Virus record (IMG/VR): IMGVR_UViG_3300023240_001391
Span: 16,554 to 80,553 of that record
DNA: 64,000 nt
From: a virus
Reading direction: 5' to 3' (one strand)
Part shown: piece after piece, positions 16,021 to 44,250 of the stretch
How the letters are laid out: each line of letters opens with the position of its first letter
Numbering within the stretch: the stretch's first letter is position 1
Made by a program: the position numbers and the translations under genes
The notes under the pieces: model-generated
Told to the model about the DNA's origin: nothing
The model's input: the letters and a program-made list of their open reading frames with translations, nothing else
Database searches by the model: none

Positions 16021-17346
16021 ATGAAATCACAAAGATTTGTTTATTTAAAAGCAGTACGTGAAAATGATATCATCTATTTGGTAGATGAGGTCGGTCACCA
16101 ATACAACGTTCCTATTATCAATGAATTTGGTAGTAAGGAATATAAACGTGCAGTAGCAGCTGTTAATTCTCCTGATCGGTTCTGTATTAAGGCCCGATGT
16201 AAAGGTACACTATCCAGCGGCGAATTGACATTTGGTAAATTTCCAGCAGCCAAGTATACTGAGTGTAATGTAGTTTCCAATTTTGATTTACCAGCAGGTG
16301 GACTTGATCAATATTTGGTTGGTGAAAAGGTAGTTGAAACCGATGAAGTGGAAACACCAACAGAACCAATAGTAACTACAGCAGTAGGTGTTGGTGAAGA
16401 TGTATTAGGATTCATTCATAATGAAGCTAGCAAATTGAAACCCGAAATGCTTTTCATCGATGAACTGAAATGGAAATACCTGATAAGAAATATTATCAGA
16501 GGTAAGAACATTATGATGACTGGCCCCGCAGGTAGTGGTAAGACAATGGCAGCAAAGGCAGCGGCATCAGCAATCGAGGGGTATAACACTGAAATCTTTA
16601 ACTTAGGTTCGACACAAGACCCACGAGCGACTCTAATTGGTAATACCCAATTTGAAGCTAAGACAGGAACCGTCTTTAACCAATCACCATTTGTTAAAGC
16701 AATTCAACGACCTAATACAGTAATCGTATTGGATGAGTTGAGTAGAGCACATCCAGAAGCTCACAATATTCTGATGACAGTATTGGATCAAGAACAAAGA
16801 TACCTTCGATTGGATGAGGCACCTGATGCACCAATCATCAATGTAGCAGATGGTGTATCATTCATCGCATCAGCAAACATTGGTAATGAGTATACTGCCA
16901 CTCGACAAATCGATGCAGCACTACGAGATCGTTTCACAGTAATCGAAATGGAAACGTTGACCGCAGCAGAGGAAACGGCACTACTCAAAATGATCTACCC
17001 TGATGTTAGAGTTAAGACATTAGAATCGATTGGTGAGATAACCAGTATGACTAGAGCAGAGGTTAAAAAAGAATCAGCTAAGTTATCATCAGGTCTATCA
17101 ACTAGAACAGCAGTAGAGATAGGTAGTCTAATCTCAGATGGGTTTACTTTAGAAGAAGCAGCAACCATCACAATATATCCAGAGTACGAAGATGTAGGTG
17201 GGGCAGAGATGAGTGAGCGAGTATACATTAAGCAATATGTTCAAAAGTTTATTGAGGCAGATGAAGAAGATCTATTCGCAATAGGTGAGGGGTATGCAGT
17301 TAAATCACCATCAGTAGATGCGGGTAATCTTAATAATCCTTTTTAA
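16021..17346 (+). CDS. MoxR-like AAA+ ATPase
   Basis: A 441-residue protein. An N-terminal domain of about 120 residues with no recognised fold precedes an AAA+ core: Walker A GPAGSGKT (168-175), Walker B VIVLDEL (234-240), sensor 1 ASANIG (284-289) and arginine finger LRDRF (301-305). The core is closest to the MoxR/CbbQ/NorQ clade, which remodels partner proteins and normally works with a VWA-domain protein. No VWA gene is visible nearby, so the partner is elsewhere in the phage or in the host. It has the highest GC and strongest expression signals of this region. Confidence 0.85.
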   Translation: MKSQRFVYLKAVRENDIIYLVDEVGHQYNVPIINEFGSKEYKRAVAAVNSPDRFCIKARCKGTLSSGELTFGKFPAAKYTECNVVSNFDLPAGGLDQYLVGEKVVETDEVETPTEPIVTTAVGVGEDVLGFIHNEASKLKPEMLFIDELKWKYLIRNIIRGKNIMMTGPAGSGKTMAAKAAASAIEGYNTEIFNLGSTQDPRATLIGNTQFEAKTGTVFNQSPFVKAIQRPNTVIVLDELSRAHPEAHNILMTVLDQEQRYLRLDEAPDAPIINVADGVSFIASANIGNEYTATRQIDAALRDRFTVIEMETLTAAEETALLKMIYPDVRVKTLESIGEITSMTRAEVKKESAKLSSGLSTRTAVEIGSLISDGFTLEEAATITIYPEYEDVGGAEMSERVYIKQYVQKFIEADEEDLFAIGEGYAVKSPSVDAGNLNNPF

Positions 17347-17600
17347 TTATTATAATATTACAATTGGGTTGTGATAAATAACGTAGGTGCCACTCCCCCC
17401 AGTAAGTAAGGGGGGGGCGGCATTAACGTGTAACCAAAGAAAAAAAGACGCGAACCAAATCGGGCATTATCGACCCCCGTTGTGAGGCTACTTTTTCTCC
17501 CTAGGTAAAACCCTTCTGTAAAGCTTGTGTATCACACAAGCAGTATTTAATTAACAAGCAGAAGCCTTAAAAATAGCCTAAACTAGCTTTTGTTTTTATA
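17347..17600. other. Intergenic region with strong hairpins
   Basis: No ORF. CCCCCC at 17394-17399 faces a run of eight G at 17410-17417, extended outwards by GTGCC/GGCAT. A second perfect hairpin GCTTGTGT-atc-ACACAAGC lies at about 17523-17541. The first may terminate the AAA+ operon, although it lacks a T run. The region marks the border between phage-style spacers to the left and the cassette-like block to the right. Confidence 0.5.
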
Positions 17601-17604
17601 TTTT

Positions 17605-17785
17605 GTTAGGCACAGTTTATTATGGACTACGAAGAAAGAGCAGAACACGAAATTGAACTGATAGAACAAGACGAAACATTAAGTGAAAAGAAAAAGTCTC
17701 AAGCAATAGAAGATGTTATACAAGAACTCCGAGAAGAACTCGAAGACCATAAAAACGGTAGGTAATAATTTTTATTGTGCCTAAC
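17605..17785 (+). mobile_element. Integron-like gene cassette 1
   Basis: GTTAGGCACA at 17605-17614 is the exact reverse complement of TGTGCCTAAC at 17776-17785. The two flank one small ORF. Matching ends of one unit with a GTT core are the signature of a free integron cassette (own R' half at the start, own R'' half at the end). GTTAGGC fits the GTTRRRY consensus. Confidence 0.55.
17622..17765 (+). CDS. Small acidic helical protein
   Basis: A 47-codon ATG ORF inside cassette 1. The product MDYEERAEHEIELIEQDETL... is almost entirely charged and helical, and ends in a coiled-coil-like segment (IEDVIQELREELED). Similar short proteins occur in many phages (from memory); function unknown. Confidence 0.65.
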   Translation: MDYEERAEHEIELIEQDETLSEKKKSQAIEDVIQELREELEDHKNGR

Positions 17786-17799
17786 ATAAAATAACAGAT

Positions 17800-18084
17800 A
17801 TGAAAAATAGTAATTTAGCATTATACGGAATACAGTCAAATATGGTAGGAGCAGAAACCTACGCACAAGCTGGCGACTTTGAGTTGTCTACGAAAATACA
17901 TATCGTTGATGTCTTATTAGCCAACGGAAGTCATTTACATATAGAATGTAATACTGAGGCACAAGCTAGAAGTATCTTGTCGACTTTATACTACTACTCT
18001 GTTAACGGTAATGATAACAACGTTGTAGAATTTGACTTTGACTTTACATTAAACTACTTGCCGATTGAACTTGCACTCAAATAA
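17800..18084 (+). CDS. Hypothetical protein
   Basis: A 94-residue soluble protein of mixed alpha/beta character. It begins 14 bases after the end of cassette 1. No family recognised. Confidence 0.7.
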   Translation: MKNSNLALYGIQSNMVGAETYAQAGDFELSTKIHIVDVLLANGSHLHIECNTEAQARSILSTLYYYSVNGNDNNVVEFDFDFTLNYLPIELALK

Positions 18085-18112
18085 ACAAATAAACACAATA
18101 AATTTTTAAGAT

Positions 18113-18250
18113 ATGGAAGAATTGCTATTAAAGAATCAATTAGTTATAATGGAAGCTATGGTTAAGAATAGATTCAATCAAGACAAAGATGGATTGATAA
18201 AACAGATTAAAATAATAAAAGAATTCTTAATTAATATTGAACAAATTTGA
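18113..18250 (+). CDS. Small helical protein
   Basis: A 45-codon ATG ORF, product MEELLLKNQLVIMEAMVKNR..., a single amphipathic helix pattern. It is separated from its neighbours by short spacers, which supports it as a real gene. Confidence 0.5.
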   Translation: MEELLLKNQLVIMEAMVKNRFNQDKDGLIKQIKIIKEFLINIEQI

Positions 18251-18253
18251 ATT

Positions 18254-18421
18254 ATGGGTAAAATGACAAAAATGACAAAAATTGATGCGGCAATAAGAGA
18301 TACCACATTATATTTTAGGAGAGCAGAAGAGAGTATAATGTTGCTAATGAGAGAGAAGAAAGTTTTACAAGAAAGGCTTAGTGCTCTTGAAGAGATAAAA
18401 GATAGCGACCAATATGAATAA
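18254..18421 (+). CDS. Small coiled-coil protein
   Basis: A 55-codon ATG ORF starting 3 bases after the previous stop. The product is helical with heptad-like Leu/Met positions (ESIMLLMREKKVLQERLSAL). No family recognised. Confidence 0.5.
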   Translation: MGKMTKMTKIDAAIRDTTLYFRRAEESIMLLMREKKVLQERLSALEEIKDSDQYE

Positions 18422-18465
18422 TTTTTTTGTAACTTTAACGGATTGAATAATAACAAAACTTAATT

Positions 18466-18873
18466 ATGAAATTACACGAAATTATTGAAGTACACGACAA
18501 ACCTTATTTTAGAAAAATGAGAGTAGAGAGTGGATTTATGTACAATTTTTGGGATGTAGAAAAGGATGACTACCAACAAGAATGGACTTTTGTGCCATAC
18601 TCAAGCGAACTGGTTAAAAATTTCGAACACCGCATAGATACAACGGTAGGACTTTGGGCAACCGATGGGCCTGATTTAATCACAACTAAAAATACGAGAG
18701 AAGAATCAATAAAATGGTGGGATAGTTTAGGTTCAAACCCATTACTAGGGTTAATTGAAAAAGGTGAATTAACTACTAAGTATTTTGGCCCTGATAGAAT
18801 CCCTGAATTATTAACTGGAAGAGAAATTGAAAAAATGTACGTATCTGAAAATGAAGATGACGTATATGTGTAG
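18466..18873 (+). CDS. Hypothetical protein
   Basis: A 135-residue protein rich in Trp and acidic residues. No membrane segment or known motif. It is followed by TTTTTACCCGACTAAATAAA, a 20-base sequence that recurs exactly before the gene at 19397. Confidence 0.7.
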   Translation: MKLHEIIEVHDKPYFRKMRVESGFMYNFWDVEKDDYQQEWTFVPYSSELVKNFEHRIDTTVGLWATDGPDLITTKNTREESIKWWDSLGSNPLLGLIEKGELTTKYFGPDRIPELLTGREIEKMYVSENEDDVYV

Positions 18874-18893
18874 TTTTTACCCGACTAAATAAA
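18874..18893 (+). repeat. 20-base direct repeat, copy 1
   Basis: TTTTTACCCGACTAAATAAA lies directly after one gene and before the next. An identical copy is at 19366-19385. It may be a leftover of gene duplication or a boundary element of the small-gene block. Confidence 0.8.
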
Positions 18894-18901
18894 ACCGAAT
18901 T

Positions 18902-19210
18902 ATGGAAGAATTATTAAAAAAAATAGGGCAGTTGCAGTATGAAATCAGTATATTAGATATTGATGAAGAGACATTAACAGGTGTTGATATTAGAACAGAA
19001 GAATTAAAAGAGATGATAATCCAAGGGCAAGCATTACCTATAGATAGTGTTAACGTTTCGTTTGAATACGAAATGTTTATAAATGATAAAGGAACACCAT
19101 TTGAAATGAACACTTGGATACCAATATCCAACGATAGAATTAAGGATGTTAGCAGGATAGATGAATACATTGAAAACGGTTTATTAAGAAAAATAGTTAA
19201 TAAACGCTAA
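18902..19210 (+). CDS. Hypothetical protein
   Basis: A 102-residue acidic protein with a helical N-terminus (MEELLKKIGQLQYEISIL). Ends CGCTAACGATTGGGCTATG, one of the recurring junction sequences of this block. No family recognised. Confidence 0.7.
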   Translation: MEELLKKIGQLQYEISILDIDEETLTGVDIRTEELKEMIIQGQALPIDSVNVSFEYEMFINDKGTPFEMNTWIPISNDRIKDVSRIDEYIENGLLRKIVNKR

Positions 19211-19242
19211 CGATTGGGCTATGAATTTTAAAAAATACGGTT

Positions 19243-19365
19243 ATGGAAACTAAATATTATATAGCGATTGGACTTTTATTAATATCGATGGTGCTAACTT
19301 TTTTTGTACCGCTTTGGTTTGAATTAAGAGAGCACAAAAAGTGGATGAAAAGGAACGATTTTTAA
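19243..19365 (+). CDS. Small membrane protein
   Basis: A 40-codon ATG ORF. One membrane helix (YYIAIGLLLISMVLTFFVPL) with a basic cytoplasmic tail (REHKKWMKRNDF). It lies between a junction motif and the second copy of the 20-base repeat. Confidence 0.55.
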   Translation: METKYYIAIGLLLISMVLTFFVPLWFELREHKKWMKRNDF

Positions 19366-19385
19366 TTTTTACCCGACTAAATAAA
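19366..19385 (+). repeat. 20-base direct repeat, copy 2
   Basis: Identical to 18874-18893, again placed between a stop codon and the next start. Confidence 0.8.
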
Positions 19386-19396
19386 TAACTAAACAA

Positions 19397-19669
19397 ATGG
19401 TAGCAATAGAGTATTTTGATAGATATAGTAGCACAGCAAATGAGCCCGATATAATGGGTAGATGGGCAAGAACGGCCATCTATAAAAACATCAGAATAGC
19501 TTGGATAAGTAGAATAGAAAATAAAGATGAAATTATTTTTAGTGTTTCTTGCCATTTCCCAACAATGCAGAACGATACAGCAAACGAACATAAACTATGT
19601 TTTAGTTTGGATGAAGCAAAAGAGTTTGTACAAGATCGCTGGGAATGGTTCTTAAATGAGGTTTCTTAA
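19397..19669 (+). CDS. Hypothetical protein
   Basis: A 90-residue protein ending in a Trp-rich helix (EAKEFVQDRWEWFLNEV). It looks like a compact alpha/beta protein. It is followed by AAACGTTAAGGCTATG, a recurring junction motif. Confidence 0.7.
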   Translation: MVAIEYFDRYSSTANEPDIMGRWARTAIYKNIRIAWISRIENKDEIIFSVSCHFPTMQNDTANEHKLCFSLDEAKEFVQDRWEWFLNEVS

Positions 19670-19709
19670 ACGTTAAGGCTATGTGTAGTGCCAAAATTTT
19701 AAAATAAAA

Positions 19710-19741
19710 TTAGGTAGTTCAACATATTATTCGTATATTTA
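19710..19741 (+). promoter_or_regulatory. Host-type promoter of a non-coding RNA
   Basis: The -33 TTAGG is at 19710 and the -7 TATATTTA at 19734-19741, 19-nt gap. No ORF of more than a few codons follows for about 600 bases; the structured RNA at 19746 begins right behind it. Confidence 0.75.
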
Positions 19742-19745
19742 CAAG

Positions 19746-20112
19746 ATGTATAGAAGTCGGCAGCGAATCGACTAATACATTACAGACATTCTTGTACGTC
19801 CAATAGCCTTTGTGCTGTATCGCTCGGAATGTTTAATTGAAAGCCGCTAGAGAGGGTTCTTAGAAAGCGGCACGGGTTTGCGAAAGGAACGCCCACTAAG
19901 AAGGTTTATTACACAACCTATAGAGTTCTGAGCATCGGATTGTAATTAAACGAAGCACCTAATAACGAAGGCTCAATGAAGGTTAAGCATATCGTTTAAA
20001 GGTATCGCCCTACGTAGTTTCGCAACGAACTTCTTAGGGATTGCTATACCTTTAACTCAGGTCTAAATCAGGTATAGCATAGTATTTAAAGTGTACACTA
20101 ACTAGTTTTTCT
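19746..20112 (+). ncRNA. Large structured RNA with pseudoknot and alternative stems
   Basis: About 370 nt without an ORF, behind its own promoter. Stems seen: ATGTAT 19746/ATACAT 19775 enclosing GTCG/CGAC; ACATTC 19786/GAATGT 19827; GTTTAATT 19831/AATTAAAC 19944; and GCCGCT 19843/AGCGGC 19866. The loop of the last holds TTCTTAG 19857, which pairs with CTAAGAA 19896 (pseudoknot). Near the 3' end AAAGGTAT 19998 pairs with ATACCTTT 20046. GCTATACC 20043 can instead pair with GGTATAGC 20071, so two exclusive folds exist. I do not recognise a known family; it is neither tmRNA nor RNase P. Confidence 0.7.
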
Positions 20113-20344
20113 TTAGATTGGGTGGTAATTGTAAAAAATTACAACAATAAACTTGTGTAGTATAATTTAATTGATTACATTGGTCAAAGATAAGGGGGAA
20201 ACTTAACCCAATAGTGAATTAAATTAAATAAAACGGTTTGGCTATGATGTCGGTTTTTATTTTTCTTAAAAACTGCATTATAGGTGGTGTTATACCCTGT
20301 TTTTGAGCGTTGGATAAAATAATTTACAGAAAAGTGTATTTTTA
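20113..20344. other. Intergenic region
   Basis: No ORF. It contains a weak hairpin (GTAATT-gtaaaa-AATTAC near 20125), a junction motif AAACGGTTTGGCTATG, and GTTATACCCT (20289), which is the left end of cassette 2. Confidence 0.5.
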
Positions 20345-20376
20345 TTTGGTGGTTAATACAGAATGCTGTATATTTG
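20345..20376 (+). promoter_or_regulatory. Host-type promoter
   Basis: The -33 TTTGG is at 20345 and a perfect -7 TATATTTG at 20369-20376, 19-nt gap. Lies within cassette 2 and drives its two genes. Confidence 0.8.
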
Positions 20377-20404
20377 TAGTATAATAATTAAAACAAAAGA
20401 AATT

Positions 20405-20602
20405 ATGACAACCCAAGAAATGAACAACAAGGTAATAGTAAGAGCAAAAGAACTTTTAACAATACCACAAGTGCAAAAAGAATACCAATCAAAAGAAAAT
20501 GAAGCAGAAGCAAAAGATTGGATTTTACACCAAGCACTAATAACTCTTATGTATTCTCACGAAGAAAGAATGGAGATGCTAAAGAAAAAACAAGCAGCAT
20601 AA
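20405..20602 (+). CDS. Hypothetical helical protein
   Basis: 65 residues from the ATG at 20405, which follows a promoter; an upstream start would overlap the -7 box. Helical and charged (MNNKVIVRAKELLTIPQVQK). The stop shares a base with the next ATG, so the two genes are translationally coupled, possibly as a two-component pair. Confidence 0.65.
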   Translation: MTTQEMNNKVIVRAKELLTIPQVQKEYQSKENEAEAKDWILHQALITLMYSHEERMEMLKKKQAA

Positions 20603-20760
20603 TGAGCAAAGACCTAATAAAATGGAGTGAACTGAGCCGCAAATTAAGCGGTTCAGACAACTCTATACGACATAATAAAATACCTAAAAAGTATGAACGC
20701 AAAGTAAATCGTTTACTGTGGATTCTCGATTTGTGGGAGCGTTGGGCAAATAGGGTATAA
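20602..20760 (+). CDS. Small basic protein, possibly DNA-binding
   Basis: A 52-residue product: KWSELSRKLSGSDNSIRHNK, then IPKKYERKV and LLWILDLWERW. The first part reads like a small helix-turn-helix (W-SELSRxLSGS-xxIRxNxIPKKY) seen in Bacteroidetes mobile DNA (from memory). Coupled to the preceding gene; an autoregulator of the cassette promoter is possible. Confidence 0.6.
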   Translation: MSKDLIKWSELSRKLSGSDNSIRHNKIPKKYERKVNRLLWILDLWERWANRV

Positions 20761-20761
20761 C

Positions 20762-20879
20762 GTTTAGTATATGGTTTTGTAAGCCATAGCAGAAATTTAC
20801 AATTGAAAAAGAATATTAATTGGCTTATAAACTATATACAGTGTTATAGTGAGTTTTTAAGTCATAAAATAACACAATA
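20762..20879. other. Cassette junction sequence
   Basis: A 118-base spacer reading CGTTTAGTATATGG ... AACTATATACAGTGTTATAG. Its two halves are partly complementary (GTATATGGTTT with AACTATATAC), giving the imperfect palindrome expected of an attC-like site between two cassettes. Confidence 0.45.
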
Positions 20880-21039
20880 ATGAAAACACATAAAGTAATT
20901 GACGTAACAACAATAAATGAAAACTCCTTATTTTACGGAACGATAGGGGAGTGTTATGAATGGAAAGTTGAGCAAGGATTTGGGTACAAAGTATTGCCAT
21001 TATCAAAAGAGGAGAAATCTTTAGCTAATTCACTATAAC
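20843..21039 (+). mobile_element. Integron-like gene cassette 3
   Basis: GTTATAGTG at 20843-20851 is the exact reverse complement of CACTATAAC at 21031-21039. The unit contains a single 52-codon gene whose stop lies in the right end. Confidence 0.5.
20880..21038 (+). CDS. Small hypothetical protein
   Basis: A 52-codon ATG ORF, the only gene of cassette 3 (MKTHKVIDVTTINENSLFYG...). Probably a small beta-rich protein. No family recognised. Confidence 0.6.
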   Translation: MKTHKVIDVTTINENSLFYGTIGECYEWKVEQGFGYKVLPLSKEEKSLANSL

Positions 21040-21104
21040 GTTTGGCTATGTGTGGAAACTATATCTTAATTATTGCTAATGCTAAGTATAAAACCAGTAA
21101 CGAC

Positions 21105-21380
21105 ATGAAGGAAAAAATTGATGAATTAATGGATAGGTTTGATGAAGGGAATATGTGTATAGATGACTTACACGGTGAGTTATTGGATTTATACAATGTT
21201 ACCCCTCGTTTTTTTGTGGCTTTGGTGTACCAAAATGTAGGGGCTACAATGTTAAGAACCTTAGTTACAAAATGTGACAACAAAGATGAGGCGTTAGGCA
21301 AAGCCATAAAATACTTTGCAGAAGAAACAAAAGGTTATGGCTTAGTAATGAAAACAGTTACTTCTCCAAATGGGGGGTAA
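21105..21380 (+). CDS. Hypothetical protein
   Basis: 91 residues from the ATG at 21105. An earlier in-frame ATG at 21048 lies in the recurring junction motif GGCTATGTGTGG and would add 19 residues, so the start is uncertain. Helical N-terminal part (MKEKIDELMDRFDEGN). No family recognised. Confidence 0.6.
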   Translation: MKEKIDELMDRFDEGNMCIDDLHGELLDLYNVTPRFFVALVYQNVGATMLRTLVTKCDNKDEALGKAIKYFAEETKGYGLVMKTVTSPNGG

Positions 21381-21459
21381 TGGTTTGGCTATGAATTGAA
21401 GCCAAGTAAAAATGTTCAATTCAATTACAAATCTTCATAGGCTTTTATTTATAGTCTGT

Positions 21460-21700
21460 GTTATAAAACGTTTTATTATGATTGCAAAAATTAAAAAGGA
21501 CTTAAAAAATAAAGGGTACAAGACACCTAAAGTAAAGTACAATAGATTGAATACTCATTCAATTTCTTATGAAGTTGCACTGAATGAAGCAGACAAATCA
21601 AGTGCTTGGGACGGACATTATTTTGTAGGAGAAGAGGGAACAGGAAATTCCAAAGAAGCAATGATTGAGGATTGGAACTCTTTTGTAAATGATTTATAAC
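21460..21700 (+). mobile_element. Integron-like gene cassette 4
   Basis: GTTATAAA at 21460-21467 is the exact reverse complement of TTTATAAC at 21693-21700, flanking one gene. The match is only 8 bases and AT-rich, so this is the weakest of the cassette calls. Confidence 0.4.
21478..21699 (+). CDS. Small hypothetical protein
   Basis: 73 residues from the ATG at 21478; the longer in-frame ORF would read through the junction sequence. Basic N-terminus (MIAKIKKDLKNKGYKTPKVK) and acidic C-terminus. Its stop lies in the right cassette end. Confidence 0.6.
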   Translation: MIAKIKKDLKNKGYKTPKVKYNRLNTHSISYEVALNEADKSSAWDGHYFVGEEGTGNSKEAMIEDWNSFVNDL

Positions 21701-21722
21701 GTTTAGGCTAAAAACAGTAAAG

Positions 21723-22043
21723 ATGAAGAACGAAATAAAAAACTTGATATATAAACACTTTGAACCTAAAGATGTGGGAATGGGAATTATAAATTGTATA
21801 CACGAAGATAAAGACGTTGATAAATTAGCAGAAAGCTTAGTTGATTTATTTTCTATACCCGTTGTTAGTAATTGGGTTGCGATCGAAAGTGATGAAAAAC
21901 CCAAAAGATTTACAGAAGTTATGGTTAAGTACACAAACGGAATAACGGCAATTGCCGTGTTTGATGGTGATGGGCGGTTTTATATCGAAAAAGATGACAG
22001 GGATATAACAGATATAGTTTTTGAATGGCATAATCTACCATAA
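21723..22043 (+). CDS. DUF551-like protein
   Basis: 106 residues. The C-terminal half (WVAIESDEKPKRFTEVMVKY ... FEWHNLP) matches the plan of DUF551 phage proteins, which begin W-I-P-x-x-E-x-P and end W-x-P-L-P after a short barrel. Their function is unknown. The N-terminal 50 residues form an added helical part. Confidence 0.6.
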   Translation: MKNEIKNLIYKHFEPKDVGMGIINCIHEDKDVDKLAESLVDLFSIPVVSNWVAIESDEKPKRFTEVMVKYTNGITAIAVFDGDGRFYIEKDDRDITDIVFEWHNLP

Positions 22044-22102
22044 TTACGGGTAATGGTTAAACTATGTTATAGGAATAATTTTACGGATTAAAAACTAAAA
22101 CA

Positions 22103-22171
22103 ATGGAAAGACTAATGATGATAATAGCAACACTTTGGCAGGAATTAAAAAAAGATTGGAAACGTTGGTAG
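22103..22171 (+). CDS. Possible micro-protein
   Basis: A 22-codon ATG ORF (MERLMMIIATLWQELKKDWK...), an amphipathic helix. Support is weak: only its position between a junction motif and a promoter. Confidence 0.25.
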   Translation: MERLMMIIATLWQELKKDWKRW

Positions 22172-22195
22172 CGTATGGGTTTATCCGTATATTAC
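22165..22195 (+). promoter_or_regulatory. Host-type promoter
   Basis: The -33 TTGG is at 22165 and the -7 TATATTAC at 22188-22195, 19-nt gap. The leader CTCTATAATGATTGATAACC is nearly the same as that of the 7.85 kb promoter. Confidence 0.65.
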
Positions 22196-22233
22196 CTCTA
22201 TAATGATTGATAACCACCTAACAATAAAAATAT

Positions 22234-22377
22234 ATGGATTTTAGAGTAGAATATAGACATAGAGGAATACTTGAATATGTACATTTATCTAGCTGTGAAA
22301 ATATAATGGATGCACTGCATAAATTCTATGAAGCACATGGAATAAGCACAGAGATTAATAAAATAGAACGTTGGTAA
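22234..22377 (+). CDS. Small hypothetical protein
   Basis: A 47-codon ATG ORF behind the 22.2 kb promoter (MDFRVEYRHRGILEYVHLSS...), probably a small alpha/beta protein. It is followed by a terminator/promoter element. Confidence 0.55.
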   Translation: MDFRVEYRHRGILEYVHLSSCENIMDALHKFYEAHGISTEINKIERW

Positions 22378-22394
22378 AAATTTATTAACAGTGA

Positions 22395-22419
22395 AGGTTG
22401 GTTTATCCAACTTTTTTTT
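22395..22419 (+). terminator. Terminator overlapping a promoter
   Basis: GTTGG at 22397 pairs with CCAAC at 22407 around a short loop and is followed by a run of T. The left stem arm is also the -33 box of the next promoter. Confidence 0.7.
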
Positions 22420-22428
22420 GTATATTAC
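22398..22428 (+). promoter_or_regulatory. Host-type promoter
   Basis: The -33 TTGG is at 22398 and the -7 TATATTAC at 22421-22428, 19-nt gap. It serves the genes from 22454 on with a ~20-base leader. Confidence 0.7.
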
Positions 22429-22453
22429 AACATAGAAAAAACACAATATCGAT

Positions 22454-22792
22454 ATGAAAGCAGAAATGTACCAAATACTATTTGATGTAGAAAATAAAAA
22501 CCTCACATCTGAACAAGCTCAAGTTCAGTTATGTGAGTTATTAAGTTTACTTAATACCGCCCATCTAAATTCCTATGACACTTATTCAGGCGATGCTTTA
22601 CATAAAATCCCGTTTGGACTTTATGAGATATTTTGGAAATCAGGGGGGTCATCCCTTGCAAGTGTTGGTAATATGCACGATGGTGTGAGGTGGATCGCAC
22701 CTAGTAACTGGACATCAGCGACTTCACCAACGGGTAGAATGGATAAACACGCAGATTCAATCGAGCGAATGGTTCTTTTGTATGGTACGTAA
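22454..22792 (+). CDS. Hypothetical protein
   Basis: A 112-residue protein with a helical first third (MKAEMYQILFDVENKNLT) and a Gly/Ser/Trp-rich remainder. The stop overlaps the next ATG. No family recognised. Confidence 0.7.
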   Translation: MKAEMYQILFDVENKNLTSEQAQVQLCELLSLLNTAHLNSYDTYSGDALHKIPFGLYEIFWKSGGSSLASVGNMHDGVRWIAPSNWTSATSPTGRMDKHADSIERMVLLYGT

Positions 22793-22926
22793 TGGTAATA
22801 GATAAAAACAAAGTAATAATAACACAACCAAGAATGTTATGTACGTGTTGCTATACAGAAAACTGCAAAGGTGAGTGCTGGATAACAATTAGATTTTATA
22901 GATGGATAATGCGGGTATTAAATTAA
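22792..22926 (+). CDS. Small cysteine-rich protein
   Basis: A 44-codon ORF overlapping the previous stop. Cysteines in MLCTCCYTENCKGECW suggest a small metal-binding knuckle, followed by a basic tail. No family recognised. Confidence 0.55.
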   Translation: MVIDKNKVIITQPRMLCTCCYTENCKGECWITIRFYRWIMRVLN

Positions 22927-22936
22927 AATATATAAA

Positions 22937-23101
22937 ATGGAATTAGAAGAACAACTTCAAATAGTAAAGGAATTACTTGAAGCAACACAAGAACTTCAGG
23001 GAGAGTACCAAGATGGTTGGGATAACAGTATTGAAGGGGGTGAAAGGCTTTTGGAGTACCTACAACACAAATTTGATTATGAAAACAATTGTTTAACATG
23101 A
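22937..23101 (+). CDS. Small helical protein
   Basis: A 54-codon ATG ORF, acidic coiled-coil-like N-terminus (LEEQLQIVKELLEATQEL). The stop overlaps the next ATG (ATGA). Confidence 0.6.
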   Translation: MELEEQLQIVKELLEATQELQGEYQDGWDNSIEGGERLLEYLQHKFDYENNCLT

Positions 23102-23292
23102 GACACCAAATAGAATTACAAAGATTAGAAGTGTGGGCAAATAAACAAGAGATACTATATGCTTCATGTACTAAATCTAAAAAGAAACTGTACGTTTTAA
23201 TGAGTAATAAATTTAAAGTGTATAGTAAAGGTAAATTAGTATATGAAACAATAATCGCATCAGCAGCAGTAGAGGCTTACAACGAACTTTAA
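23098..23292 (+). CDS. Small basic protein
   Basis: 64 residues from the ATG at 23098 that overlaps the previous stop; an upstream TTG is not needed. Basic and helical then beta (SKKKLYVLMSNKFKVYSKGK). No family recognised. Confidence 0.65.
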   Translation: MRHQIELQRLEVWANKQEILYASCTKSKKKLYVLMSNKFKVYSKGKLVYETIIASAAVEAYNEL

Positions 23293-23321
23293 TTATACCC
23301 AACCCCGCAAAAACCCAAACA

Positions 23322-23510
23322 ATGATAGACATCGACTTAATATCAAACATAGTAATAGGTGGCATAGACCAAGAAGACTTTCCTGACTTCTGCGATTCCT
23401 ACATAGAATCAGGAACCTACAAAAGCAGAGATCTAACAGATATCGAGTTAGATGAGATAAACGAAGACTCGGCTTTTGTTTACGAGAAAACTATTGAATC
23501 TATGTATTAG
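23322..23510 (+). CDS. Small acidic protein
   Basis: 62 residues, strongly acidic (DQEDFPDFCDSYIESG). Last gene before a junction motif (CTAATGACTAAACTATG). No family recognised. Confidence 0.65.
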   Translation: MIDIDLISNIVIGGIDQEDFPDFCDSYIESGTYKSRDLTDIELDEINEDSAFVYEKTIESMY

Positions 23511-23561
23511 CTAATGACTAAACTATGTTTTGGTTGTTTTTACAACTTAAATATAGATTTT

Positions 23562-23867
23562 GTTAGCATTAGTACGGATTATTAACTAAAAAAATAAATA
23601 GAATGAAAAAATTCAACATTAATGATTATATCTATATCCAGATAACAGAATTAGGATGGAAACACTTAGAGAAAACAGTAGGTAGTGAATACATAAAACA
23701 TTGTATTAACGCTGACGGGTATAAAAAAGAGATAGATAACGAAACGTGGCATAGACTACAAGCGCATGACGTGTTTAGTTTATTACCTATGGGAACAGGA
23801 TTTAATTTATTATACAATCCAAACGTAATGTTTGATGGGGATGCGTTAAAGTAGTATTAATGCTAAC
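23562..23867 (+). mobile_element. Integron-like gene cassette 5
   Basis: GTTAGCATTAGTAC at 23562-23575 and GTATTAATGCTAAC at 23854-23867 are reverse complements with one mismatch in 14. They flank one gene. The right end is followed directly by GTTAAGGGTATGG, the start of the junction to the methyltransferase cassette. Confidence 0.6.
23603..23854 (+). CDS. Small hypothetical protein
   Basis: 83 residues, the only gene of cassette 5. MKKFNINDYIYIQITELGWK, then a helical part and LLPMGTGFNLLYNP. Proteins beginning with this ITELGWxHL pattern occur in small Bacteroidetes accessory loci (from memory); function unknown. Confidence 0.65.
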   Translation: MKKFNINDYIYIQITELGWKHLEKTVGSEYIKHCINADGYKKEIDNETWHRLQAHDVFSLLPMGTGFNLLYNPNVMFDGDALK

Positions 23868-23913
23868 GTTAAGGGTATGGTGTCGTTTGCTTTTCGCAAA
23901 TGCACTATAACCA
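23868..23913. other. Cassette junction palindrome
   Basis: GTTTGC-ttttc-GCAAATGC sits between GGGTATGG and CACTATAACC. The imperfect palindrome lies exactly between the right end of cassette 5 and the left end of cassette 6, as an attC-like site would. Confidence 0.5.
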
Positions 23914-24716
23914 GTGTTGTGCATAGTACGGATTATTAAAAACTAAAATTAAATAGAATGGAAATAAACAAAATATATAATGAAAATTGCCTTGATACAA
24001 TGGCGAAAATGGAAGATAACTTTATTGACTTAATAGTTACATCACCACCTTATTTTAATGCTAAAGAATATTCACAATATGATAGCGTTTCAGAATATAT
24101 GAGACAAATGAAAGATATTTTCTTAGAAACTGAAAGGGTGATTAAAGAGGGTAGGATGTGTGTTATAAATATTAGCCCTGTACTTGTTGCTAGGGAAAAA
24201 AGAAGTAAACAAAGCTATAGAATACCATTACCTTATTATTTTGTGCCTATGATGGAGGAAATAGGCTTTGAGTTTTTAGAGGACATTATATGGGAAAAGC
24301 CAGAAGGTGCTGCTGCAAATAGAAACGGTGGTTTTTTTAGGAGTAGAAAACCATTAGCATACAAGCCTAATATAGTTACAGAATATATATTAGTATTTAA
24401 GAAAAAGTCAAATTTATTAATAGATAAGTATTTAAAAAACAATAGCCTTGTTAGTGATGGTTATGAAAGGAGTAATATTTGGAAAATACAACCACAAACG
24501 AAAAGTAAGCGCCCAGCACCTTTCCCTGATGAAATTGCTGACAAATTAATAAAATACTATTCGTATGAAAATGATTTAGTTTATGACCCGTTTATGGGAA
24601 GTGGAACAACTGCAAAGATGGCTAAACTAAATAATAGAGATTTCATAGGTAGTGAAATGGTTGAGGATTACTGTGTAATTGCAAATGAACGATTAAAATA
24701 GTATTATGCACAACAC
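23914..24716 (+). mobile_element. Integron-like gene cassette 6 (methyltransferase)
   Basis: GTGTTGTGCATAGTAC at 23914-23929 and GTATTATGCACAACAC at 24701-24716 are reverse complements with one mismatch in 16. They flank only the DNA methyltransferase gene. This is the longest and clearest pair of matching ends in the block. Confidence 0.65.
23958..24701 (+). CDS. DNA methyltransferase, beta class (N4-C or N6-A)
   Basis: A 247-residue protein. Catalytic motif IV TSPPY (28-32) precedes the AdoMet-binding motif I DPFMGSGTT (210-218), the order of beta-class amino-methyltransferases. SPPY is most common in N4-cytosine enzymes but also occurs in N6-adenine ones. No restriction endonuclease or recognition-protein gene is next to it, so it is an orphan that probably protects phage DNA from host restriction. 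Carried as a single-gene cassette, so probably recently acquired. Confidence 0.9.
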   Translation: MEINKIYNENCLDTMAKMEDNFIDLIVTSPPYFNAKEYSQYDSVSEYMRQMKDIFLETERVIKEGRMCVINISPVLVAREKRSKQSYRIPLPYYFVPMMEEIGFEFLEDIIWEKPEGAAANRNGGFFRSRKPLAYKPNIVTEYILVFKKKSNLLIDKYLKNNSLVSDGYERSNIWKIQPQTKSKRPAPFPDEIADKLIKYYSYENDLVYDPFMGSGTTAKMAKLNNRDFIGSEMVEDYCVIANERLK

Positions 24717-24785
24717 AAGGCTAAACTGTCGTTTTCAATACAGTTTAGTTAATGTTATCTTTTGTTAATAAGTAAACTAAAAATT

Positions 24786-25142
24786 ATGAAAACAATTAAT
24801 TTATTTGGCAAAGAAATGCCAATTGAGAAAGAATACGAAGCAGCAGTTTGTGTATGGGAAACGATTGGTTCAAGTATTGATGATTATGAAGATGTTAAAA
24901 TAAAACTAGGACAGAAAATATATAATATTAAAATATTGGAAACTGGTAGTATTATTTTTACAACATCACCAGATAGTAAAATTAATATGGTGACAATGTT
25001 TCCTCAAATGTTTGGATTTCCAAGCGATGAGCAACTAATTGAAGTTAAAAATTTAGAAGATATTATAAGCAAATCACATGATAAAATAAATGATATTTAT
25101 AATAGTATTGAACGAACTGGTTATACTGATATACCGTTTTAA
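24786..25142 (+). CDS. Hypothetical protein
   Basis: 118 residues from the ATG at 24786 (an upstream TTG lies in the junction). Mixed alpha/beta protein with two long acidic helices near the C-terminus (NLEDIISKSHDKINDIYNSI). No family recognised. Confidence 0.7.
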   Translation: MKTINLFGKEMPIEKEYEAAVCVWETIGSSIDDYEDVKIKLGQKIYNIKILETGSIIFTTSPDSKINMVTMFPQMFGFPSDEQLIEVKNLEDIISKSHDKINDIYNSIERTGYTDIPF

Positions 25143-25153
25143 AACTAAATATT

Positions 25154-25354
25154 ATGAATGAAGATATTATAAAATTAAAAAACTTGATTGAAGAGTATGA
25201 AGAACTTTGTGAAGAATCTGAACAAATGAGCAAAGATTGGGAAAGTGGTTCTGAATGTGAATCGGCAATGGCAGACCCTAGCGACAAATATATGAAGGGT
25301 ATGCAGATTGAAGAAAAGCGCAATGAAATTAAGAGTGTCTTAAATACACTCTAA
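25154..25354 (+). CDS. Small acidic coiled-coil protein
   Basis: 66 residues, almost all Glu/Lys/Ser (LKNLIEEYEELCEESEQMSK). Its stop lies in CTCTAACGTTGAGTATAAC, the last junction motif of the block. Confidence 0.6.
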   Translation: MNEDIIKLKNLIEEYEELCEESEQMSKDWESGSECESAMADPSDKYMKGMQIEEKRNEIKSVLNTL

Positions 25355-25386
25355 CGTTGAGTATAACAATTAAAAATAGATAAATT

Positions 25387-26328
25387 ATGAGTGTAAATTT
25401 TTTAAGTAAGGCTAACAGACAATTAATAATCGACCAATACTCAAGTAATAAACCACGTAAACAAGTTCAAGATGAACTAAGTGTATTTCTTAAAGTAACT
25501 CGTAGAACTATTAGGAGATACGCTAAAGAATTAAACTTAGGAATTAAAGCATCTCAATTAGTAGATGATAAAATTATGGTTTACGATATTGAGACAAGTC
25601 GAACAGAGGCAACCGTTTGGTGGACTGGTAAACAGTACATAAACCATAAGCAATTAAGAACAGAACCTAAAATGATTAGTGTTGCTTGGAAGTGGCTAGG
25701 TCAAGACGAAGTGCATTATCTAACTTGGGATAAAAACCATTGCGACAAGAAAATGTTAGAATCGTTTTTAAAGCATTATAATAAGGCATCTATGGTAATA
25801 GGTCAGAACAATAATTCATTTGATAATAAGTGGGTTAATACACGTGCAGCAAAGCATAAGTTACGAGTTGATAGATATGTAAAGTCCTTTGATATTTACA
25901 GAATGGCAAAACGATATTTTAGATTACCAAGTTTCTCAATGGCTTATATGGCTAAGTACTTTGGATTAACATTAAAGCAATCTCACGAAGGTACACATAT
26001 GTGGGATATGATTGAGTACGGTAGTAAAGCCGAACAAGCTGAGTACTTAGGTAAAATGGTGGATTATAACAAAGGGGATATTGTAACTACTGAGGAATTG
26101 TATATGACTTTAAAACCTTATTTTGGTAGTGTAACTAATAATGCAGTTAAGCGAGGTTTACCTAAATGGGCGTGTCCTGTGAGTGGTTGTGTAGAAGTTA
26201 GGTTATTAAAAACTATTTTTACAGAGCAAGGAACAGTACAAAGGATTTTGTTTTGTGATGAGAGCCAACACCAATATAAGGTAAGTAATAAGTCTTATAT
26301 GGATTTCTTACAACGTAAAATGATATAA
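25387..26328 (+). CDS. DnaQ/RNase H-like 3'-5' exonuclease with HTH
   Basis: A 313-residue protein. Residues 11-50 look like a resolvase-type helix-turn-helix (VTRRTIRRYAKELNL). The rest has exonuclease motifs: Exo I VYDIETS (Asp67, Glu69), Exo II GQNNNSFDNKWV (Asp146) and Exo III VDYNKGDIVTTEELY (Asp231). A C-terminal Cys/His pair region may bind zinc. Ribonuclease H-like proteins of this layout are frequent in Bacteroidetes phages; a role in DNA processing or host DNA degradation is inferred. Confidence 0.75.
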   Translation: MSVNFLSKANRQLIIDQYSSNKPRKQVQDELSVFLKVTRRTIRRYAKELNLGIKASQLVDDKIMVYDIETSRTEATVWWTGKQYINHKQLRTEPKMISVAWKWLGQDEVHYLTWDKNHCDKKMLESFLKHYNKASMVIGQNNNSFDNKWVNTRAAKHKLRVDRYVKSFDIYRMAKRYFRLPSFSMAYMAKYFGLTLKQSHEGTHMWDMIEYGSKAEQAEYLGKMVDYNKGDIVTTEELYMTLKPYFGSVTNNAVKRGLPKWACPVSGCVEVRLLKTIFTEQGTVQRILFCDESQHQYKVSNKSYMDFLQRKMI

Positions 26329-43159: not shown

Positions 43160-44250
43160 GTTAAATAAGTAAAGAAATCGTTCTTTGAAAGTATTGAAAG
43201 TATTAAACTAAATACATGATTAATCCTACTTCGGTAGTAGGCACCGATTTGGCATCGGGGTTGAAGATAATCTACGTATTACCACTGTCCAATGGGAGTT
43301 TAATAATATTGGGTAGTTTGATATCCAATTAAAGTATCATCGATGTGTAACAGCCAGGCTGACAATAAGTTGATAGTTTAATAAAGAATAGAAATCCGTA
43401 AGGATTTTGAAAGGTGATATATCACATCTCATCGCTAATTCGTTAGTTCATTTAAACAAGCAACATCTTACCTGATACTCAAATCAGGCCATCATTACCA
43501 AATGGTGGATATAGCAGTAAGTTGATGTAATCGGGCCCTTGAGAAAGGATACGTTCAGAGCCATTCGGTGAGAACTAATAAGTGTAGTAACTTACCCCAT
43601 TACAAACTAAATCAATGTAGTTAGAATAGGATAAGTTGTAGAGTGTGAGTTTGATTCCTTGCTAGGGATAAGGCGAACATTCAGTATGAAAGGTAAAAGG
43701 ATTCGTATAGAATTCGTAGTAATCTTAAAATACCGCACAGTAGGATTTGCAATCCGAAACGTATGAGGTGTGTTGTATTTTGTATCTCAAAAGGGTATGA
43801 AGCAACTGTTGAAGCACACCTTCGTGAATTTAAACTTTGTAAGTTAGCTCAGTTGGTAGAGCATTTGCCTCAGAAGCAGATTGTCGGTGGTTCAAATCCA
43901 TCACTTACTATCATATAGATAGAAAAAAGCAAAGACTTCAACAGTTATGGAAAACAAATCACCTAATCCTACACTCTTAGGAGAATGTAGGTTCGTAGAA
44001 GCTCGCAAGGCAGAAATGAATTGATTGAATTCTGCACTTAATCACTTCGCGGTGATGAATGGCTCGCAAGGTCAGAGGAAAGATGAAAGTTGAGTAGTTC
44101 CATAATGATATGAGTATAGCCACTCATTAAAAAAGGCGGTGATGTTGTCATACATTCGTGTTGAATGTGGATACGTTATTAACAATAGAGGTCGCACTTT
44201 ATTGGCACGGTAACAAAAGTGATAACATAAGAGGTTTAATCTCAACCTAC
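43160..44250 (+). ncRNA. Possible large ornate RNA enclosing a tRNA
   Basis: About 1.1 kb of highly structured sequence behind one promoter. Hairpins: CCTACT-tcggt-AGTAGG (43225), CCGAT/ATCGG (43244), and AAATCC-gtaa-GGATTT (43392). A three-way unit closed by CTTAC/GTAAG holds CCTGAT/ATCAGG and CCATCATT-acca-AATGGTGG (43467-43521). AGGTGTG/CACACCT spans 43766-43821. After the tRNA come CCTACA/TGTAGG, ATCAC/GTGAT and ACATT/AATGT. CTCGCAAGG occurs twice (44002, 44063). Size, phage context and the embedded tRNA recall GOLLD and ROOL RNAs, but I cannot confirm homology. Confidence 0.5.
43838..43910 (+). tRNA. tRNA with CAG anticodon on a class I body
   Basis: D stem GCTC/GAGC, anticodon arm TTTGC-CTCAGAA-GCAGA, T arm GGTGG-TTCAAAT-CCATC. 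CAG would read CUG (Leu), but leucine tRNAs have a long variable arm and this one has the short class I arm. The first acceptor pair is T-T. It lies inside a structured RNA and may be a recoded or mimic tRNA. Confidence 0.8.

Follow-up and report, generated by a model that had tools for sequence, protein, structure and literature searches.

The window analysed here is a 64,000-nucleotide stretch of a phage genome (positions 16,554 to 80,553 of IMG/VR record IMGVR_UViG_3300023240_001391), in which a block at 17.3-25.4 kb carries, all on the plus strand, a series of small gene-bearing units whose first and last bases (R' and R'') are reverse complements of each other. Unit a (17605-17785) consists of an R' at 17605-17614, a small open reading frame at 17622-17765 and an R'' at 17776-17785, and its ends pair at 10/10 positions. 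It is preceded at 17545-17604 by what resembles, by eye, the right-hand portion of a long hairpin like those found in viral contig loci L260 (10013-10153) and L264; the left part is absent, and this stretch gave no match with either covariance model. Of these two models, R1 was built from 6 window sites and 4 sites of Polaribacter phage P12002L, and R2 from 123 sites located in further viral contigs; R2 is free of window letters yet not wholly independent, as its training sites were collected with R1.

Unit b (20289-20761) follows a hairpin at 20235-20288 (attC-like site 20223-20302; R2 53.8 bits, E 2.1e-9) and holds an R', a promoter-like leader, open reading frames at 20405-20602 and 20602-20760 and an R''; its ends pair at 10/10 positions, after which position 11 is G.T and three further pairs follow. 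The next hairpin (20762-20842; site 20750-20856, R2 46.3 bits) leads into unit c (20843-21039), with an R' from 20843, an open reading frame at 20880-21038 and an R'' ending at 21039. Its ends (20843-20852/21030-21039) pair at 10/10 positions, one more than the 9/9 given when the sequence alone was read. A further unit, missed in that sequence-only reading, has a long hairpin at 21081-21197 (site 21069-21211; R2 46.2 bits, E 1.2e-7) and extends over 21198-21381, with an R' from 21198, an open reading frame to 21380 and an R'' that ends in AAT at 21381 (9/11 paired). This long hairpin contains an in-frame ATG at 21104. Unit d (21460-21700; hairpin 21382-21459, site 21370-21473, R2 39.8 bits), in which an open reading frame ends at 21699, has the weaker pair already recognised as such, with 8/10 positions.

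The remaining units lie further downstream. Unit e (23562-23867) follows a hairpin at 23516-23561 (site 23506-23575; R2 34.7 bits, E 5.8e-5) and carries an open reading frame at 23603-23854 between an R' and an R'' that pair at 13/14 positions, the remaining one being G.T. The hairpin of unit f (23868-23915; site 23856-23929, R2 58.0 bits, E 2.2e-10), an identical copy of which is present in viral contig locus L261, precedes an R', an N6/N4 DNA methyltransferase gene at 23958-24701 (PF01555, E 9.5e-44) and an R'' (unit 23916-24714). Here too the ends pair at 13/14 positions plus one G.T, or 15/16 if the two extra bases of the sequence-only reading are counted. The last hairpin of the array (24715-24753; site 24703-24767, R2 42.6 bits, E 8.4e-7) is followed by GTT at 24754 and an open reading frame ending at 25142, for which no matching R'' was recognised. 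Incomplete sites occur after 17785, 21039 and 21700, and in the intervals 17.8-20.2 kb and 21.7-23.5 kb no site was detected by either covariance model; the block is only partly built of cassette units.

All five strong terminal pairs that had been proposed are present, and they exceed what shuffled sequence yields. Between 17301 and 25400 there are five GTT...AAC pairs with a score of at least 10, a number reached in 0/200 dinucleotide shuffles (mean 0.485, maximum 3), and other 8.1-kb pieces of the window contain 0-2 such pairs each. The contrast is weaker at a score of at least 9 (6 pairs against a shuffle mean of 1.855, with 2/200 shuffles reaching 6), and a cut-off of 12 is uninformative, no pair in the block reaching it. 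When R2 was applied to the 174,750-base record of this phage, seven sites were found, all on one strand and all within the block, and the rest of the record gave no further site at E<=1. The 14-mer AACGTTTGGCTATG was rejected as an array marker, as it occurs in at least 120 stretches of the viral collection, a number reachable by chance. A search of the block against Rfam gave one match, below threshold.

The sites have the R''-L''-L'-R' hairpin form of attC sites. Among 190 unique sites, the limits are AAC in 175 (AAT in the other 15) and GTT in 188, counts that are partly by construction, since sites of this kind served to train the model and only those with AAC/AAT were retained in the list. 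Two-sided changes occur in 10/14 stem pairs among 10 sites, and the four P12002L sites align with those of the window with covarying stems, so that a conserved structure is combined with variable sequence and compensatory changes, as in attC sites. Pairing of the outer arms extends across 14 positions, and at position 11 it is almost never Watson-Crick. Most ends had been described as lying outside the GTTRRRY consensus, which is correct, and the 7-base R-box consensus does not capture arms that extend to about 14 positions and in which position 11 is near-invariantly non-Watson-Crick. The pairing of R' and R'' of one unit, a trait of integron cassettes, is found in the window and in other arrays, where 46 pairs of unit ends match at a mean of 7.37/11 positions against 4.39 for random pairs (0/5000 permutations). 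A larger set of 101 pairs has a mean of 6.57 against a permutation mean of 4.14 (maximum 4.76; 0/5000 permutations), with 44/101 neighbouring pairs poorly paired. The arm sequence differs from unit to unit, which led us to reject a single transposon family with common terminal repeats.

Relative to their genes these sites are flipped, as several observations show. Among 379 pairs of near-identical hairpins, 48 agree in at least 9/10 R' positions (base rate 243/17955) and 8 in R'' (base rate 327/17955); hairpin similarity thus tracks R' and not R'', and the hairpin belongs with the downstream gene. AAC is followed by G in 171/190 unique sites and GTT is preceded by T in 187/190, the reverse complement of the canonical AACA..CGTT flanks seen at four Shewanella-phage sites. 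The coding strand is the more stable one in 103/120 short hairpins, 62/182 unique hairpins having been excluded as too long, whereas the canonical sites show the opposite (4/4), and sense-strand G.U-type pairs prevail (142 vs 18). No excess of extrahelical bases was present on the R''-L'' arm of the 120 short hairpins (bulge excess left in 31 and right in 32, counted on minimum-energy folds only). The canonical yardstick consists of four sites of Shewanella phage M16-3, read by eye from intergenic stretches; Tetrasphaera phage TJE1 was not used for it. R2 found no site in either of these canonical records, so our models describe only the flipped site type, and an automatic RYYYAAC..GTTRRRY finder returned nothing in M16-3 and only one in-gene stretch in TJE1.

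Comparison of related phages revealed natural gain, loss and reordering of whole units, which bears out the earlier proposal of an integron-like cassette array and places the changes at the predicted boundaries. Sequence identity between L260 and L264 is 100% over stretches of 8538 and 609 nt, and the two are distinguished by a single 953-bp unit whose joints lie within TAAC. A single slot between ..TTTAAC and TACCATATATAA.. holds 1 unit in isolate phi18:1, 2 in isolate phi12:1 and 3 in isolate phi17:1, all three being phages of Cellulophaga baltica, and L304 and L319 have two units in common in reversed order. Tallied in equal windows, the ends of common or differing units fall at AAC in 15 cases and at GTT in 5 (17 and 4 with unequal windows), a count that covers stretches of at least 150 nt, with 13 near-duplicate or unsuited records omitted or merged by position, and in which 128/155 ends lie at no detected site. 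GTT rather than AAC is the 5' joint in the unit shared by P12002L and L294 (98%) and in unit b, the first 125 and last 164 nt of which match L304 at 88-89% identity, from the GTT start to the AAC end, and the first 124 nt of which match L319 at 90%. The R'/R'' logic of the sequence-only reading therefore stands as regards terminal pairing and fails as regards canonical orientation, since each hairpin is associated with the gene that follows it and the AAC to its left is the principal joint; the canonical arrangement of an attC hairpin 3' of the gene and a G^TT joint is not what we found. A fixed, vertically inherited block was rejected because the block itself shows no similarity at the DNA level in relatives found through its flanking genes, though all of these are only distantly related (56-71% amino-acid identity for the ATPase; about 80% nucleotide identity for the exonuclease, a single gene).

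Dozens of viral contigs share this site type, as do Polaribacter phage P12002L and cultured Cellulophaga phages, which speaks against an isolated capture by one phage; loci L268-L325 were fetched with a 19-base attC-like pattern, and the hairpin types are a non-random sample. A conserved attC-like pattern had 0 matches in a bacterial and archaeal collection of 84,980 species and 12 in viruses, so a bacterial source of that subtype is not favoured. An attC-like probe gave no match in a plasmid collection. One methyltransferase relative was found (66%), on a 4,057-base MAG contig in which no attC-like site was detected.

P12002L is a reported carrier of attC sites (Qi et al. 2023, PMC9892861), and IntI1 was reported to recombine 5/6 tested attC sites of virulent phages, including one of two from P12002L; the identity of our P12002L sites with the published attC1/attC2 is our own assignment. 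Like those virulent-phage CALINs, the present block has integrase-less attC-like sites and DNA methyltransferase cassettes in a flavobacterial phage. Divergent attC directions in P12002L were noted in that paper, and the part of it drawn on here makes no mention of sites flipped relative to genes or of cassette exchange among related phages. Canonical cassettes (PMC2727003) share the AAC/GTT limits, the R''-L''-L'-R' symmetry and a conserved fold with variable sequence, and their pairing also extends beyond 7 bases (9-11 stated). The phage sites differ in having the hairpin 5' of the gene, the coding strand in the bottom-strand role, the main joint at the left AAC, a 14-position arm with position 11 near-invariantly non-Watson-Crick, no clear extrahelical bases and no intI seen. 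Treponema reverse integrons, as outlined in PMC7691350 and PMC3607928, likewise combine an integron layout with an unusual orientation, but in those it is the integrase gene whose orientation to the array is changed, whereas the present array has no integrase and it is the sites that are reversed with respect to their genes. Complete integrons are reported to be rare in Bacteroidetes (PMC9024848).

The earlier remark that no integrase is visible holds for the whole 174,750-base record of the phage (PF00589, 0 matches). TIGR02249 had no match in the 80,553-base record, the IntI family had none in 60 site-bearing records, of which many are fragments, and 15/16 other records gave no tyrosine recombinase at all. 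An enzyme of the integron type is accordingly a guess. With seven sites detected by our own models and no PF00589 match, the block has the composition of a CALIN (at least two attC sites, no intI) and, lacking an intI match, not that of a complete integron with intI and attI beside the array.

We consider that the block is probably an integrase-less, attC-type mobile cassette array, flipped relative to its genes and exchanged by an integron-type recombinase in trans. Each cassette would have the layout hairpin (L''-L'), R' beginning with GTT, gene, and R'' ending with AAC, and in a circular cassette R'', hairpin and R' would come together as one folded site. The folded coding strand would be the counterpart of the canonical attC bottom strand, on which an integron-type tyrosine recombinase, supplied by the host or a co-infecting element, may exchange strands at AA^C to the left of the hairpin, with the junction then resolved by replication. 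Rarer exchange at the right-hand GTT, on the other strand, could reassort hairpins among genes, and the phage may benefit from the exchange of small accessory genes, DNA methyltransferases among them. A more specific version, in which Bacteroidota phages possess an exchange system of their own that circulates mainly among phages and uses 5' flipped sites, the coding strand and a non-IntI recombinase in trans, is possible and is put forward tentatively.

An ordinary CALIN, made of canonical cassettes from a host chromosomal integron that are decaying and immobile in the phage, would fit the published phage CALINs (PMC9892861), the missing integrase, the three incomplete sites and the canonical GTT joint of two shared units. 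We regard it as unlikely, since units move within and between phages, a point on which the isolate comparison already weakens it, since canonical sites have the opposite polarity, hairpin linkage and main joint, and since one conserved subtype has viral matches and no bacterial ones. Replication slippage or template switching at palindromes, by which segments would be deleted or swapped between short direct repeats (TAAC) without any recombinase, accounts for the TAAC common to the L260/L264 joints, for a lost unit made of a hairpin plus a stem-loop and for the lack of an enzyme gene in the records searched. This is very unlikely to be the whole process, as insertion is also needed for units common at 92-98% to otherwise dissimilar contigs and shuffled in order, the joints fall repeatedly at AAC or GTT, and the sites of different phages are recognisably of one class, with stems that covary. 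That the hairpins act as RNA, as 5'-leader structures of small phage genes with arms that reflect mRNA folding and with only incidental mobility, would agree with their position upstream of genes, the prevalence of sense-strand G.U-type pairs and the greater stability of the sense strand. Such a role leaves the unit boundaries, the shuffling, the AAC/GTT joints and end-to-end pairing across a whole gene unexplained, and we consider it highly improbable as an account of the array.

The exchange of accessory genes among phages is attributed mainly to homologous or illegitimate recombination. Here, phages cultured on a single host species are distinguished by entire cassettes at defined positions, and site-specific gene shuffling in lytic phages thereby becomes open to direct testing. 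How integron cassettes are formed is regarded as an open question, and it is one to which the occurrence of the same hairpin next to many different genes and R' sequences is relevant. The flipped polarity raises the question of how the strand is selected at sites of this kind, and the lack of an integrase suggests that an enzyme awaits discovery.

The block lies in an 80,553-base virus record that includes the window, and a 174,750-base viral contig matches this region with 99.99% identity across 10.5 kb. As 27 tRNAs, a tmRNA, a GOLLD RNA and a baseplate wedge protein were found in the window, its source is a large tailed phage. The 27 tRNAs and the tmRNA are clustered at 35-44 kb together with the GOLLD RNA (43765-44248, 184.7 bits), within which a tRNA-Leu(cag) resides. 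TAnnTTTG-like promoters, which are of the Bacteroidota type, were seen by eye in the window, and together with the related phages they point to a host that is probably a member of the Bacteroidota.

The sequence-only reading had described five units with reverse-complementary ends, and all five pairs were recovered where it had placed them, in addition to an extra unit at 21198-21381 beyond its list. Five pairs scoring at least 10 were observed in the block against 0.485 per dinucleotide shuffle of 17301-25400, a count reached in 0 of 200 shuffles; at a score of at least 9, six pairs were observed against 1.855 per shuffle and six were reached in 2 of 200, a weaker contrast from which it follows that the paired-end signal depends on the longer pairs. 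The odd position was position 11 in three of the five window pairs, with G.T every time. Across 101 neighbouring R'/R'' arm pairs, a mean of 6.57 of 11 positions were paired, a value reached in none of 5000 permutations (mean 4.14, maximum 4.76). Within the 57 well-paired arm pairs, a subset of the 101 selected for pairing, positions 4-9 and 12-14 match in most, and position 11 matches in 2 (G.T in 35, T opposite T in 18, other in 2). To our knowledge, this position-11 mismatch has no counterpart in canonical attCs.

Imperfect hairpins separate the window units. Alignment of six of these with four hairpins of Polaribacter phage P12002L, chosen by eye between methyltransferase genes, gave two-sided changes in 10 of 14 stem pairs. 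The covariance model built from this alignment, R1, yielded seven matches on the whole 174,750-base record, all within the block and on a single strand; six of these had been used to train it, and the remaining one has an E-value of 0.175. A second model, R2, trained on 123 sites from other contigs and none from the window, recovered the same seven sites (E 2.9e-10 to 7.7e-5) and no further site at E ≤ 1 in that record; its training sites contain no window letters, yet they were gathered with R1, which leaves R2 only partly independent.

Cassette content in related phages had been proposed as a check, and the comparison revealed whole units gained, lost and reordered. Two viral contigs, L260 and L264, share 100% identity over 609 and 8538 nt and differ by one 953-bp unit that encodes a methyltransferase, both joints falling within TAAC. 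In phi12:1, phi17:1 and phi18:1, all isolated on Cellulophaga baltica and with 92-96% identity around one slot, the interval between ..TTTAAC and TACCATATATAA.. holds two, three and one units, respectively, each starting after AAC and finishing in AAC (phi12:3 and phi18:2 are near copies that add no information on the slot). Two units are common to loci L304 and L319 in reversed order, one is common to L280 and L299 (92% identity), and a methyltransferase unit is common to P12002L and L294 (98% identity). Two stretches of the window's unit b (20289-20761), the first 125 nt beginning at its GTT and the last 164 nt finishing at its AAC, recur in an L304 unit, with differing middles and hairpins, and the first 124 nt are also present in L319.

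In a canonical array, the gene comes first and is followed by its hairpin, with the joint at G^TT. Among the near-identical hairpins detected here (379 of 17,955 pairs), the downstream arm R' was alike at ≥9/10 in 48 (base 243/17,955) and the upstream arm R'' in 8 (base 327/17,955). Ends of common stretches of at least 150 nt fell at AAC in 15 cases and GTT in 5 using equal windows, or 17 and 4 using looser ones. Of the 155 ends counted with equal windows, 128 coincide with none of the detected sites, and 7 lie within a hairpin or next to one. G directly follows AAC in 171 of 190 sites and T directly precedes GTT in 187 of 190; these AACG..TGTT-type flanks are the reverse complement of AACA..CGTT, as read by eye at four sites in Shewanella phage M16-3, which carries an integron. 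Canonical attCs mostly have G immediately after AAC in the bottom-strand box that is cleaved (PMC2727003). The coding-strand hairpin is more stable in 103 of 120 cases (equal in 3, less stable in 14); at the four M16-3 sites, the opposite strand forms the more stable hairpin. In 103 of 110 cassette bodies, the longer open reading frame and the site share a strand, and some long hairpins contain a start codon (window 21104; L260 near 18,690), which would hardly be allowed in a canonical cassette. Hairpin-R' linkage, AAC ends, flanking bases, strand stability, reading-frame strand and in-hairpin starts together indicate that the sites are flipped relative to the genes, the coding strand taking the canonical bottom-strand part.

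A pattern from the window and P12002L sites had 12 matches in the viral collection, this phage being one, and R1 matched in all 11 other records. Relatives of the flanking ATPase gave 1 site match in 1.43 Mb (79 loci), and relatives of the exonuclease directly downstream gave 20 in 335 kb (7 of 30 loci). A second pattern found 59 matching stretches, and of 64 further loci, 55 contain sites detected by R1 (123 in total), with at least two in 28 loci. A 58-base probe against named phages matched seven records, every one a Cellulophaga phage (phi13:2, phi12:1, phi12:3, phi17:1 and their RefSeq copies); P12002L was matched by a different probe. The plasmids probed for the attC-like site gave no match, and one exact conserved pattern had 0 matches in the bacterial and archaeal collection. 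In a 388,594-base viral contig, attC-like sites number fourteen at E ≤ 0.01; they form three clusters, one of which is on the opposite strand to the other two.

Directly before the array, intergenic positions 17350-17560 fold far better than shuffles (z -3.76, 0/200) and match no Rfam family; this predicted fold is possibly a structured RNA. Inside the array, about 370 bases at 19740-20115 have no obvious gene, appear richer in G+C by eye and fold ordinarily (z -1.21). Genes with about 78-80% DNA identity to the RNase H-like exonuclease gene at 25387-26328 occur in 10 other viral loci, where the DNA on both sides is dissimilar; the gene hence seems to travel singly, adjoining the array.

IntI-type integrases (TIGR02249) were not matched in 60 records (the window's record, 12 and 47), many of which are fragments. 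The sequence-only reading had seen no integrase, in agreement with the lack of a tyrosine recombinase (PF00589) match in the window's phage; the published genomes of P12002L, phi12:1, phi17:1 and phi18:1 likewise had no PF00589 match. Because no integrase was found in these array-bearing phages, we infer that the enzyme acting on the array either is provided in trans or belongs to a different kind. One of 16 other records, phi13:2, matched PF00589 through an annotated site-specific recombinase, making this a putative candidate enzyme. In phi13:2 this tyrosine recombinase gene is close to both a DNA methylase and an attC-like site (L338, 10545-12948). For the Bacteroidetes, a passage of PMC9024848 gives In0 alone as previously known, followed by a single complete integron in Salinibacter ruber M1, and none of the attC classes in a passage of PMC8352920 is from Bacteroidota.

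CALINs, attC sites without intI, were established in phages, P12002L among them, by Qi et al. 2023, who also reported IntI1 to be active on 5 of 6 phage sites tested (PMC9892861). Among the matches listed from the open-access literature, none dealt with attC sites of Cellulophaga phages, and none described attC sites turned round with respect to their genes, which is weak evidence of absence. The defining features of paired ends, conserved fold and gain and loss of units are present, whereas the canonical placement of the hairpin, a joint at G^TT and bases protruding from the helix (extrahelical bases) are absent. The earlier interpretation as an array of the integron cassette kind is retained, with its canonical geometry corrected to flipped sites, and the sequence comparisons support a block that would work like an integron cassette array.

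Canonical cassettes are promoterless. The leader of unit b (20289-20404) contains promoter-like sequence that is also found in the L304 and L319 units, and cassettes of this type may, in contrast to canonical ones, bring their own promoter.
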